This document shows, in pieces, positions 4,486 through 20,362 of a stretch of 40,391 nt of DNA. The stretch's first letter is position 1. Each line of letters starts with the position of its first letter. Location: the NCBI RefSeq assembly GCF_008274215.1, contig NZ_VTPS01000023.1, forward strand, positions 1-40,391, written 5' to 3'. The position numbers and the translations under genes were made by a program. The DNA is from Calorimonas adulescens. GTDB taxonomy: Bacteria > Bacillota > Thermoanaerobacteria > Thermoanaerobacterales > UBA4877. Below the pieces are notes generated by a model that saw nothing but the letters and a program-made list of their open reading frames with translations, searched no databases and was not told the origin of the DNA.

Positions 4486-5778
4486 ATGATTAAATGTAGT
4501 ATATCAGACGTCAAACAATATGAAGGACAAGAGGTTTTAATCAAAGGATGGCTTTATAACAAAAGATCCAGTGGAAAGATTCAATTTCTGCAATTAAGAG
4601 ACGGAAGTGGCTTTATCCAGGCAATAGTTGAGAAATCCAGGGTTAGTCCGGAACTTTTTGAACTTTGCGAACATTTAACACAAGAGTCATCAATTAATGT
4701 GGTCGGCAGGGTAAGAAGCGATAAAAGAGCGCCCTCTGGTTATGAGATGGATGTAATAGACGTAGTAGTAAACCAGTTGACAGAGGATTATCCCATTGCA
4801 CTTAAAGAGCATGGTGTTGAATTTCTTATGGATAATAGGCATTTATGGATACGTACAGAAAGGCAAAGTGCCATCTTGCGTATACGTCATGAGATTATAA
4901 AAAGCGCTATGGAGTTTCTTAATAATCATGGGTTTATAAAGGCTGATGCACCAATTATTACACCGGCAACATGTGAGGGCACAACTGATCTATTTGAGAT
5001 TGATTACTTTGGTGAGAGTGCTTACCTGTCTCAGACAGGACAGTTATACGCTGAGGCATGTGCAATGGCCCTGGGCAAGGTGTATACACTTGGGCCTGCA
5101 TTTAGAGCCGAAAAATCAAAGACAAGGAGACACCTTATAGAGTTCTGGATGCTTGAACCTGAGGTAGCATATTTAGAACATGAAGGCAATCTTGAACTTC
5201 AGGAAAAACTGGTTTCCTATATTGTTGAAAGTGTGCTTAAAAATAGAATACTGGAATTGAAAGCCATTGGCAGAGATATATCTGCACTTGAAGAGATCAA
5301 AATCCCATTTGAACGTATGAGTTATGATGATGCGATTAAGACACTTAAGAATAATAATTTTGATATTGAATGGGGAGATGACTTCGGTTCTCCTGAAGAG
5401 ACTTTTCTTGCGAATTTATATAAAAAGCCTTTGTTTATTACTGAGTATCCAAAGCACTGTAAAGCATTTTACATGCAGCCTAATCCAAATAGACCTGAGG
5501 TTGTGCTTTGCGATGATTTACTAGCCCCTGAAGGCTATGGAGAGATTATAGGCGGAAGTCAGAGAATTCACGATTATGACCTCATGGTTCAGCGGCTTGA
5601 AGAAGAAAATCTCCCTATGGATATTTATAAGTGGTATCTTGATTTACGAAAATACGGTAGTGTACCTCACTCAGGTTTTGGCCTTGGTATTGAAAGAACT
5701 GTAGCATGGATTTGCGGTCTTGATCACATAAGGGAAACAATACCATTCCCACGTATGCTTTATAGAGTGACCCCATAA
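4486..5778 (+). CDS. asnS: Asparaginyl-tRNA synthetase
   Basis: AsnRS charges tRNA-Asn with asparagine using ATP. At 430 residues it has the normal bacterial length. The N-terminal OB-fold anticodon domain includes [16 protein letters not shown]. The class IIb catalytic core shows motif 2 ([19 protein letters not shown]), the Asn/Asp-type [12 protein letters not shown] motif 3, and the C-terminal PFPRMLYR. The start at 4486 is chosen because a GGGGG ribosome site lies 8 bases upstream and the protein then begins [10 protein letters not shown], as relatives do. An ATG at 4471 overlaps the purB stop but lacks a Shine-Dalgarno. The gene is followed after 26 bases by a chemoreceptor. Confidence 0.95.
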
Positions 5779-5804
5779 TTTTATTGTAAGGGGATGAAGA
5801 ATGC

Positions 5805-7259
5805 ATGTTTAATAAGAAGAGCGGTATTGAGCTTATAATATCAGAATTTATACAAGAAAACCTTTATAATGTTTCTAAGTTAAAAAAGAATCTTGGCAAC
5901 GGTAGATTAGGCAGGATGATTAATAATATGTTTAATACCGTTTTCAATGTTATTGGGAGAATGCAAAGGGCTTCTGAAGAGATTAGATATTTAACAAACA
6001 CAATAAAAGCTAACTCATCGGAGACAAGGATTGCTTCAAATCAGATAGCCTCTGCAATGGACCAAATTGCTGCTTCTACGCAGAATGAGGCTCGGTTAAG
6101 TCAGGAACTCATGAATCAAATAAATATCGTCAATGATACCTCAAATGTTATATTGAAAAAATCACAGTATGGAGCTGATACCACAGGTCAATTAAAAGAG
6201 AAGGTTAAAACTACTCAGAATGTTTTAACTGAGTTGACTGAACAGATAAATCAACTGGGAATGGCTAACAGAGAAACTGCAAATACAATGAATGAGCTGG
6301 TTGATTTGACAAAACGCATAACAGAATTTGTGAATGTGATAACTGATATTGCTAAAAAGACTAATTTGTTATCATTGAATGCTGCGATTGAGGCTGCAAG
6401 AGCAGGTGAGGCTGGGAGAAGTTTTACTGTGGTAGCAAATGAGATAAGGGGCCTGGCCAACCAGACTGAATCTGCTGTAAAACAAATAGAAGAACTATCA
6501 ATTGCCATTCAAATGGGGGCTCAAAACTCTACCAATCAGATAAATCATAGTATTGCAACCATGGAAACCAATATTATTAAAACTGATGAAACTAATAAGA
6601 CATTTAGTGACCTCAAACAGGATATAGATAATATGATAGAAGTCATAAATGAAATTTCTGGTTTGACTAAAAAGCAGATAGAGCAGTTATCATCTAGTGT
6701 ACAGACCGCAGAGCTTATAACATCAGCAATTCAAGAATCAGCGACCGAGATAGAAGAGATTACTTCCTCTATACAACAGGAGGATACTGCTATTGAAGAA
6801 ATAGATAATTCAATTGGGAAACTTGATAAGTTGGCCAATGAATTATTTAATATAACATATAATTATACATCTGAAAAATATTTAACAGATTTGTCTCAAA
6901 AGAATATTTCTGCTGCAGTAAATATTTTGCAAAAATTGATTGAAGAGCCCGGAATTATGGAGATGAATAAAAATAATCACAAGAAAGTCGTCTATAGTTA
7001 TTATGAAAAACATAAAGATATTATAAGCACTCTCCTTACTCTTGATTCTAAAGGTAACGTTTTGGCCATAACATCTGATACAAATGTAAGTAATTTTGTC
7101 TTCAGAGAATGGTTTCAAAAGGCAATTGAAGGTGAGATATTTTGCTCTCGTCCATATATTACTGTAGCAACCAATGATGTAAATGTTACTGTTTCTGCAC
7201 CGATAAAGGATCGAGCTGGAAATATTATTGGTGTAGTGGCAGCTAACGTTTTAATATAA
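5805..7259 (+). CDS. Soluble methyl-accepting chemotaxis protein with C-terminal Cache-like domain
   Basis: The 484-residue protein has a long MCP coiled coil from about residue 55 to 345. The conserved kinase-control hairpin tip lies around 182-215 ([20 protein letters not shown] then [15 protein letters not shown]). I see no signal peptide and no hydrophobic stretch long enough for a membrane helix. After the signalling domain, residues 395-484 resemble the distal part of a Cache/PAS-like sensor: [27 protein letters not shown], then [20 protein letters not shown] at the end. Canonical transmembrane receptors put such a sensor first and outside the cell; here it follows the signalling domain, so an internal signal is inferred. 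The ATG has an AAGGGG site about 11 bases upstream. No che operon is nearby; a lone cheR is at 19536. Confidence 0.88.
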
Positions 7260-19535: not shown

Positions 19536-20303
19536 TCACAATTTTCTATAAAAGAATGTTTTATATGCCTCTAATCCATAGTTCTGTGGGAAAATAATTT
19601 GTTCAGTATTTCCAACAAACAATATTCCGCCCTTATTTAATGAGTTTGAGAGATTTGTTAATACAAAATTTTTTGCTTCCTCAGTAAAATAAATTAATAC
19701 ATTTCTGCATAAGATGAGATCAAAATTCTTTGGATAACCATCTCTCAATAAATTAAATGTATCAAATTTTATGTTCTGTTTAAATGAGTCCTTTACTCTA
19801 TATTTATTGTTGTCTAACTTAATGAAATATCTTTCAAGCAAGTTTGTATCTATATTTTTTATCTGTCTAAAATCATACACCGCTTCGTGCGCTTTCTTTA
19901 ATTCATTGTTATCAATATCCGTTGCCAATAATTCATATCGGACTTCTAAATCAGAAAGAATAAATTGCAATGAGTACACTTCTTCCCCACTTGAACAGGC
20001 ACAACTCCAAATTTTTATATATTTCTTATTAGTATATAGCAGAGGGATAATACTATTCCTTAGGATGTTCCATTGTTCCGGATTTCTAAAAAATTCTGTA
20101 ACATTGATTGTTATATATCTTAAAAACTCAGCATAAAGATCCTTGTTTCTGTTCAGCACATCTAAAAACTCAGCATATGTTTTATAGCCATGCCTATTGA
20201 CAAACGTTGAAATTCTTCTTTTCATTTGTTTTTCTTTATAGAGATTCAGATCTATCCCAGACAAATCTAAAAAAGAAGATACAAAATAAGAAAAATCATT
20301 CAA
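19536..20303 (-). CDS. cheR: Chemotaxis methyltransferase CheR
   Basis: CheR methylates glutamates on chemoreceptors using S-adenosylmethionine. The 255-residue protein has the N-terminal CheR domain (about 1-75, with TINVTEFFRNPEQW) and a Rossmann SAM domain with IWSCACSSGEEVYSL (98-112), LLATDID and ILCRNVLIYF. I place the start at TTG 20303, 8 bases after AGGGGG. A GTG at 20348 is in frame but lies inside the speD terminator hairpin and adds unrelated residues. No che cluster is adjacent. It heads the miaB-mutSL-miaA-hfq run. The soluble receptor at 5805 is the only receptor in the window and a possible substrate (inference). Confidence 0.92.
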   Translation of the reverse strand: MNDFSYFVSSFLDLSGIDLNLYKEKQMKRRISTFVNRHGYKTYAEFLDVLNRNKDLYAEFLRYITINVTEFFRNPEQWNILRNSIIPLLYTNKKYIKIWSCACSSGEEVYSLQFILSDLEVRYELLATDIDNNELKKAHEAVYDFRQIKNIDTNLLERYFIKLDNNKYRVKDSFKQNIKFDTFNLLRDGYPKNFDLILCRNVLIYFTEEAKNFVLTNLSNSLNKGGILFVGNTEQIIFPQNYGLEAYKTFFYRKL

Positions 20304-20318
20304 ATTTAATTCCCCCTG

Positions 20319-20362
20319 GATTCTAAAAAAATGTGACTTGCAGGTCACATTTTTTTAGAATC
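20319..20362 (-). terminator. Perfect hairpin terminator after speD
   Basis: Arms of 19 bases (20319-20337 and 20344-20362) are perfectly complementary around a 6-base loop. Each contains a run of seven A or T residues. It begins at the speD stop and ends just before the cheR ribosome site, so it could terminate on either strand. Confidence 0.85.

Follow-up and report, generated by a model that had tools for sequence, protein, structure and literature searches.

A soluble chemoreceptor of Calorimonas adulescens with a C-terminal Cache domain and its relatives in Bacillota

The gene and the domain order of its product

The DNA analysed here (the window) is a stretch of 40,391 nucleotides of Calorimonas adulescens (contig NZ_VTPS01000023.1), in which an intact open reading frame encodes a chemoreceptor of 484 residues (Table 1). 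Upstream, an asnS-like reading frame, named by eye, ends at position 5778, and a sequence resembling a ribosome-binding site precedes the ATG of the receptor gene. The open frame comprises 489 codons and opens only five codons before this ATG, so that an N-terminal membrane helix cannot have been overlooked; a wrong start codon is likewise ruled out by the length of the frame together with the position of the AAGGGG motif. Promoter-like sites near the gene (8, against 7.8 in shuffled sequences) and terminator-like sites (0, against 1.1) were uninformative. The closest relative of the protein, from another genus of the same family, is 74% identical and has the same 484-residue layout, with identity at 45 of 46 residues of the kinase-contact tip and at 59 of 80 residues of the Cache core.

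Pfam places the MCPsignal domain at residues 156-296 (111.8 bits, curated cut-off 34.6) and MCP-like_PDC_1 (PF22673) at residues 406-482 (33.6, curated cut-off 27). A match of dCache_1 (PF02743) to residues 399-482 scores 32.3, below its cut-off of 45, and covers profile positions 61-150 of 240 only; it is the first part of the dCache_1 profile that is matched, and a single PAS-like module is followed by the stop codon where dCache_1 has two modules. Pfam hits were considered up to E 1 and included no CZB domain, so that a sensor of the TlpD type was rejected. The highest Kyte-Doolittle hydropathy over 19-residue segments is only 0.99, in the segment starting at residue 406, a Cache strand; this rules out a hidden membrane helix and agrees with the initial annotation, made from the sequence without database searches, which had described a soluble receptor with no visible membrane helix. 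A hydropathy of 1.65 at residue 454 in loci L026-L028 was also rejected as a membrane helix and corresponds to a Cache strand. In anchored relatives the part that aligns with residues 1-47 is the HAMP and post-HAMP region; residues 1-47 themselves have no HAMP match. In canonical transmembrane receptors the sensor is N-terminal and precedes the signalling domain; the reverse order that had been proposed for this protein, with the signalling domain first and the sensor fold last, is confirmed by the order of the Pfam matches, by the AlphaFold model and by the fold match to KinD described below.

Table 1. Features of the receptor gene and of a possible partner gene in the window (positions in the window; residue numbers refer to the receptor)
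Feature	Position	Strand	Basis
Ribosome-binding-site-like AAGGGG, 11 bases 5' of ATG	5788..5793	+	Direct reading
Soluble chemoreceptor, MCPsignal then Cache, 484 aa	5805..7259 (stop included)	+	ORF reading, Pfam, hydropathy
N-terminal helices without membrane span, residues 1-47	5805..5945	+	Alignment, Pfam, hydropathy
N-terminal hairpin arm, residues 48-201	5946..6407	+	Alignment
Kinase-contact tip, residues 180-225, best conserved stretch (0.73)	6342..6479	+	Alignment
C-terminal hairpin arm, residues 202-356	6408..6872	+	Alignment; helix to 358 in model
Methylation-site consensus (candidate), residues 313-322, pair E317/E318	6741..6770	+	Pattern scan
Break between hairpin helix and Cache helix 1, residues 359-361	6879..6887	+	AlphaFold model
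Cache N-terminal helices, residues 362-404	6888..7016	+	AlphaFold model
Cache core, PAS-like sheet, residues 405-484	7017..7256	+	Pfam, model, fold match, conservation
R434-E435-W436, with predicted pocket residues R434 and W436	7104..7112	+	Alignment to KinD and PctA
Y451, equivalent of PctA Y144	7155..7157	+	Alignment
N481, where PctA has ligand aspartate D173	7245..7247	+	Alignment
CheR methyltransferase gene, possible adaptation partner	19536..20348	-	CheR match

The C-terminal domain is a single-module Cache

The AlphaFold model of residues 320-484, computed from an alignment of seven sequences (the receptor and six relatives, namely five family members and one canonical Cache, L046), has a mean pLDDT of 85.4; 83 of its 165 residues reach 90 or more, and most of the Cache core exceeds 90. 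The sensor fold suggested for the last 90 residues is thus recovered by structure prediction, in a confident Cache model. In this model the hairpin helix extends to residue 358 and, after the break at residues 359-361, helix 1 of the Cache begins at residue 362; this helix is 18 residues long (362-379), and a PAS-like sheet continues to the end of the protein, so that both the sheet and the long N-terminal helix of the Cache superfamily are present. The sensor segment had initially been placed at about residues 395-484: the sensor fold is real, but it starts earlier, with helix 1 from about residue 362. Single-sequence AlphaFold prediction of the whole protein has a pLDDT of 45.5, with the hairpin lacking a confident model.

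The best match of the model among solved structures is the sensor of Bacillus subtilis KinD (PDB identifiers 4jgo and 4jgp; Foldseek E 4.1e-08), which is also the top match with VIA-align (Z 18.1 and an rmsd of 2.1 Å over 123 residues); further VIA-align matches after KinD include CitA, DcuS, McpA, PctB, Mlp24 and PctA. By sequence, a profile of the family searched against the PDB matches PctA best (2.7e-12) and KinD with 3.6e-10. Among 38 aligned members of the family (non-identical, the receptor of the window included, with some near-copies), mean column conservation is 0.73 in the tip, 0.54 in the Cache core, which ranks second, and 0.35-0.39 in the arms. The stretch from residue 350 to 365, which includes the break, is of equal length in 25 of the 38, longer by two residues in 2 and longer by three in 11. 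The C-terminal domain is a complete single-module Cache of about residues 362-484. It departs from the usual extracytoplasmic position of the Cache superfamily, as the receptor has no membrane helix by hydropathy and its relatives are anchored by N-terminal helices only.

The signalling hairpin and the direction of the signal

In 29 of the 38 aligned members, the receptor of the window included, neither 154-residue arm shows a length change; within the receptor itself the equality of the arms is by construction, as we placed their ends at the tip +/- 154. The MCPsignal match is accompanied by the symmetric antiparallel hairpin with a conserved tip that characterises MCPs, found in the alignment of the 38 members. 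The hairpin would be of the 44H-type length, with 22 heptads per arm, a name given on length alone. Residues 313-322 match what we take to be the methylation consensus, and a second match in the same pattern scan (residues 320-329) overlaps the first.

The antiparallel nature of the hairpin is established for the MCP family, and residues 48 and 356 therefore share one end, opposite the kinase tip. This bears on the earlier suggestion that the signal of an internal ligand would need to start at the far end of the coiled coil, which does not hold, because an antiparallel hairpin brings a C-terminal sensor to the end where an N-terminal one would be. The C-terminal Cache occupies the place that HAMP and the membrane helices have in canonical receptors, and only the input helix is changed.

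The predicted ligand pocket

R434 of the receptor aligns with R131 of KinD and R126 of PctA, and W436 with W128 of PctA; the equivalence with KinD R131 was read from the sequence of the R131A mutant of KinD. The KinD structure contains pyruvate according to its PDB title. In PctA, R126 bonds the carboxyl group of the ligand, and W128, Y144 and D173 also take part in direct binding (available part of PMC10104139). R434, W436 and Y451 are invariant in 38/38 aligned members, which accordingly carry the R126/W128/Y144 set of dCache_1AA. Position 481 is D in 27 of the 38 and N in 11; the receptor of the window has N, and so lacks the D173 of dCache_1AA. Among 28 further members with a C-terminal Cache, the arginine is found in all 28, position 436 is W in 24 and Y in 4, position 451 is Y in 25 and F in 3, and position 481 is D in 19, N in 5 and G in 3, with a gap in 1. 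In a full-length relative from Acetoanaerobium (L125) the pocket arginine is replaced by alanine. The arginine was also present in 6/6 canonical Caches compared, only two of which have Y at 451; the arginine thus marks the Cache type and not the cytoplasmic form. From these residues, a small carboxylate would be the most likely ligand class of the receptor's Cache, and an amino-acid ligand is less likely for it than for its relatives, because the aspartate of PctA is absent (N481).

A family with C-terminal Cache domains in Bacillota

Some match to the protein is present in 58 of 61 genomes (its own included), and most of those listed are confined to the signalling part. Thirty loci were listed, and we analysed the 16, the window included, whose match reached the Cache. 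The Cache profile matches 132 of 299 sampled genomes of the phylum at E <=1e-10, with both domain orders mixed. When the domain order is compared across homologues, as the initial annotation had proposed, the Cache is last in 28 of the 29 loci at the top of the Cache search, with 0-9 residues after it (22 assigned by the tip pattern before the Cache and 6 by alignment), and in 28 of 40 further loci, down to E 2.3e-18 (27 of them assigned by the tip pattern and L116 by reading). In 7 of these 40 loci the Cache precedes the output part (6 were assigned as receptors by pattern, and L119 was read as a GGDEF-type protein) and in 5 it lies inside CheW; L092, one of the 7, still scores E 1.4e-31. The layout with the Cache last is found in 47 genomes in addition to the window's own, that is, in at least 48 of the 299 sampled from the phylum. 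Locus L070, the remaining one of the 29 top loci and a frame of 159 codons with a Cache of the same type and no signalling part in frame, was excluded from the count; it is either a gene that has been broken or split or a Cache module that stands alone. A whole-protein pattern scan of the genome contigs gave 30 pattern matches and no confirmed relative. When the contigs were scanned with an alignment of four Cache ends, 6 loci were obtained out of 53 pattern matches; in five of these loci the Cache comes last, and the sixth (L046) is canonical. A search of plasmids returned two records, from Acetoanaerobium and Niallia, the first of which was analysed; the receptor of Acetoanaerobium noterae (L125) is also of the soluble form.

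Among the 38 aligned members, scanned over the first 130 residues of the longest frame, two N-terminal hydrophobic helices are seen in 19 (with loops of 3-18 residues), one in 11 and none in 8, and in none of the 19 two-helix members is there room for an outside domain between the helices. HAMP was detected only in L043 among seven family members scanned with Pfam. The Cache is placed on the cytoplasmic side because the signalling hairpin before it must meet CheA in the cytoplasm; judged from their sequences, the Cache of these proteins should lie in the cytoplasm and should be their only sensor candidate. In a quick tree with long branches and a midpoint root, on which the direction of change is uncertain, the receptor and its closest relative belong to a group (98 SH-aLRT) of 12 rows, of which 10 are anchored. 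The soluble forms correspond to at least three changes on this tree, which suggests that the soluble form is recurring and workable; that membrane helices were lost in these forms is only suggested.

In five genomes of one genus (L094, L099, L101, L106 and L108) a Cache of the same type lies inside CheW, in the order CheW half, Cache, CheW half. The frames have 278-396 codons, CheW plus Cache taking up about 280. In two of these proteins, scanned with Pfam, the Cache interrupts the CheW match and divides it into two parts (68.0 and 61.1 bits, cut-off 23.5); the remaining three loci were read alike. The pocket residues R, W, Y and D are present in all five. A flagellar rod protein-like frame, named by eye, lies near the CheW-Cache gene in L099 and L094. 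The fusion looks like a sensor built directly into the adaptor, and its predicted architecture supports a cytoplasmic place for the Cache.

Chemotaxis partners and other receptors of the genome

The genome has two CheW genes, CheR and CheB. We infer that a 668-residue frame with a CheW-like end, the match to which runs over one TAG, would be CheA. The CheR gene of the window is the only CheR match in the genome, and the CheW, CheA-like and CheB matches lie on another contig, contig 1. Six other receptors of the genome span the hairpin arms, with exactly equal lengths in L001, L002 and L005 and differing lengths in L003, L004 and L007, and L008 is short over the arms. Some of these receptors have features of their own. 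L004 (contig 6, about 40469) has a C-terminal phosphonate-binding-protein domain (PF12974, 215.1 bits) and N-terminal hydrophobic stretches in the segments from residues 1 and 20, and is a second reversed receptor in this genome, with a binding-protein fold that apparently lies inside the cell. L005 (contig 22) has an N-terminal haem-NO-binding (HNOB) domain with hydrophobic stretches behind it. L008 (contig 21) is soluble, with 256 residues and a short hairpin; its N-terminal part resembles by eye the start of a nucleotide-binding Rossmann-like domain, for which there was no Pfam match.

Comparison with known systems

The sensors closest to this Cache belong to proteins of another layout. KinD shares its fold and the arginine equivalent to R434, but is a sporulation histidine kinase, whose sensor has two modules and precedes the output domain. 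Pseudomonas PctA and other dCache_1 amino-acid receptors share the pocket R, W and Y and, with PctA, provide the best profile match in the PDB; the PctA sensor, however, is N-terminal, lies outside the cell and has two modules and D173, whereas the Cache of the receptor is C-terminal, inside, of one module and has N481. The same order of domains, with the Cache C-terminal, is seen in a receptor of Thermoanaerobacter wiegelii (NC_015958, L043) and in one from a Thermanaeromonas metagenome-assembled genome (L042), which differ from the receptor of the window in having two membrane helices at the N-terminus, joined by a short loop, with HAMP in L043 and no HAMP match in L042.

Among receptors without a membrane span, Helicobacter pylori TlpD is soluble, and its hairpin precedes the sensor, which is attached to the C-terminal arm at the opposite end from the kinase tip (PMC12871147 and PMC13001251, both in their accessible parts). 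In the same texts the TlpD sensor is a zinc-binding four-helix CZB domain and not a Cache, its hairpin is about half the length found in transmembrane receptors, where that of our receptor would be of the long 44H type, and TlpD has an N-terminal PAS domain, unlike our receptor. Thermotoga maritima Tm14 is also a cytosolic receptor with the same hairpin topology, but has no ligand-binding domain according to the available sections of PMC12871147.

Cache domains form the largest superfamily of outside sensors in prokaryotes, 78% being confidently extracellular, and two small Cache families are principally intracellular (PMC4822843, accessible portion). Sensors at the C-terminus of chemoreceptors are described in the available extracts of three papers: a poorly characterized subfamily with the ligand-binding domain at a C-terminal extension, of at least 17 types (PMC7390727, 2020), some archaeal receptors with C-terminal domains (PMC9680633), and TlpD, the C-terminal sensor of which has solved structures (PMC12871147). 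Chemoreceptors with C-terminal sensors are already known, and what is unusual here is the place of a Cache sensor; the 17 published types are known to us by number alone. Our literature search, which covered titles, the opening lines of abstracts and passages of papers mostly from outside the subscription journals, found no cytoplasmic C-terminal Cache receptor and no CheW-Cache fusion.

Proposed working and alternative explanations

On balance we lean towards the protein being a chemoreceptor that works in the cytoplasm as a homodimer and informs CheA of a metabolite inside the cell, by a ligand and a mechanism that are predicted as follows. A small carboxylate, pyruvate-like or amino-acid-like, would bind under R434, W436 and Y451 and move helix 1 of the Cache, which is placed after the C-terminal arm and the three-residue break. 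As this helix shifts, the four helices of the bundle would pack differently along the arm that bears E317/E318, and the activity of CheA at the tip would change in consequence; CheR and CheB would then reset the receptor. The signal would run along the bundle in the same direction as in canonical receptors and enter via the other helix, with no need of HAMP. Because the model has a break at residues 359-361 and the length of the linker varies among members, the path of the signal may not be a rigid continuous helix. The receptor would act alone in the cytoplasm or be mixed into arrays with those receptors of the genome that have arms of equal length; the dimer, the arrays and the methylation are assumed for this receptor by analogy with the MCP family.

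The Cache could instead be a structural cap that binds no ligand; it would then serve to dimerise soluble receptors or to arrange them in cytoplasmic arrays, or else to hold them at a given place in the cell. The absence of the acidic ligand residue (N481) is in keeping with such a role, as is the requirement of the C-terminal 45 residues of TlpD, beyond its sensor, for polar location (PMC13001251, available part), an example of a C-terminal segment with a role in placement; we nevertheless consider it unlikely, since the pocket R, W and Y are invariant throughout the aligned members and the recurrence of the module inside CheW resembles the relocation of a sensor more than that of a cap. Rather less probable is that the Cache answers to a partner protein, such as the transporter or the enzyme of a metabolite, in place of a free small molecule; membrane-anchored relatives could conceivably adjoin transporters, but the pocket residues are those that bind the ligand directly in PctA.

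The remaining alternatives concern the protein as a whole. The many anchored rows in its group on the tree would suit a decaying remnant of an anchored receptor left after loss of the membrane helices, an explanation that we regard as improbable in view of the intact frame, the identical length and 74% identity in another genus, the near-identity of the tip and the conservation of the Cache core between the two, and the repeated changes to the soluble form, which suggest a recurring, workable design. That a canonical outside-sensing receptor was misread through a wrong start, a wrong frame or a hidden membrane helix has practically no probability left, being refuted by the length of the frame, the order of the Pfam matches, the hydropathy and the same layout in the closest relative.

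Implications

Our preferred reading of the receptor as a cytoplasmic metabolite sensor can be extended, tentatively and with somewhat less than an even chance of being right, to the proposal that in Bacillota a Cache of the amino-acid/pyruvate type was relocated to the cytoplasm, where it senses the cell's own metabolites for chemotaxis and is docked on the C-terminal arm of receptors, soluble or anchored, and inside CheW. If this is true, chemotaxis to the internal metabolic state would be possible without an outside sensor and, with the CheW form, without any receptor sensor. A family with its Cache inside the cell and on the opposite arm would offer a natural test of which helix of the hairpin must move to switch CheA, a soluble protein could be crystallised or reconstituted without a membrane, and R434 is a candidate residue for a clean test of sensing. 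Cells with such a receptor may steer by a molecule of their own cytoplasm, and the family suggests that internal pools of carboxylates or amino acids guide the movement of many Clostridia.
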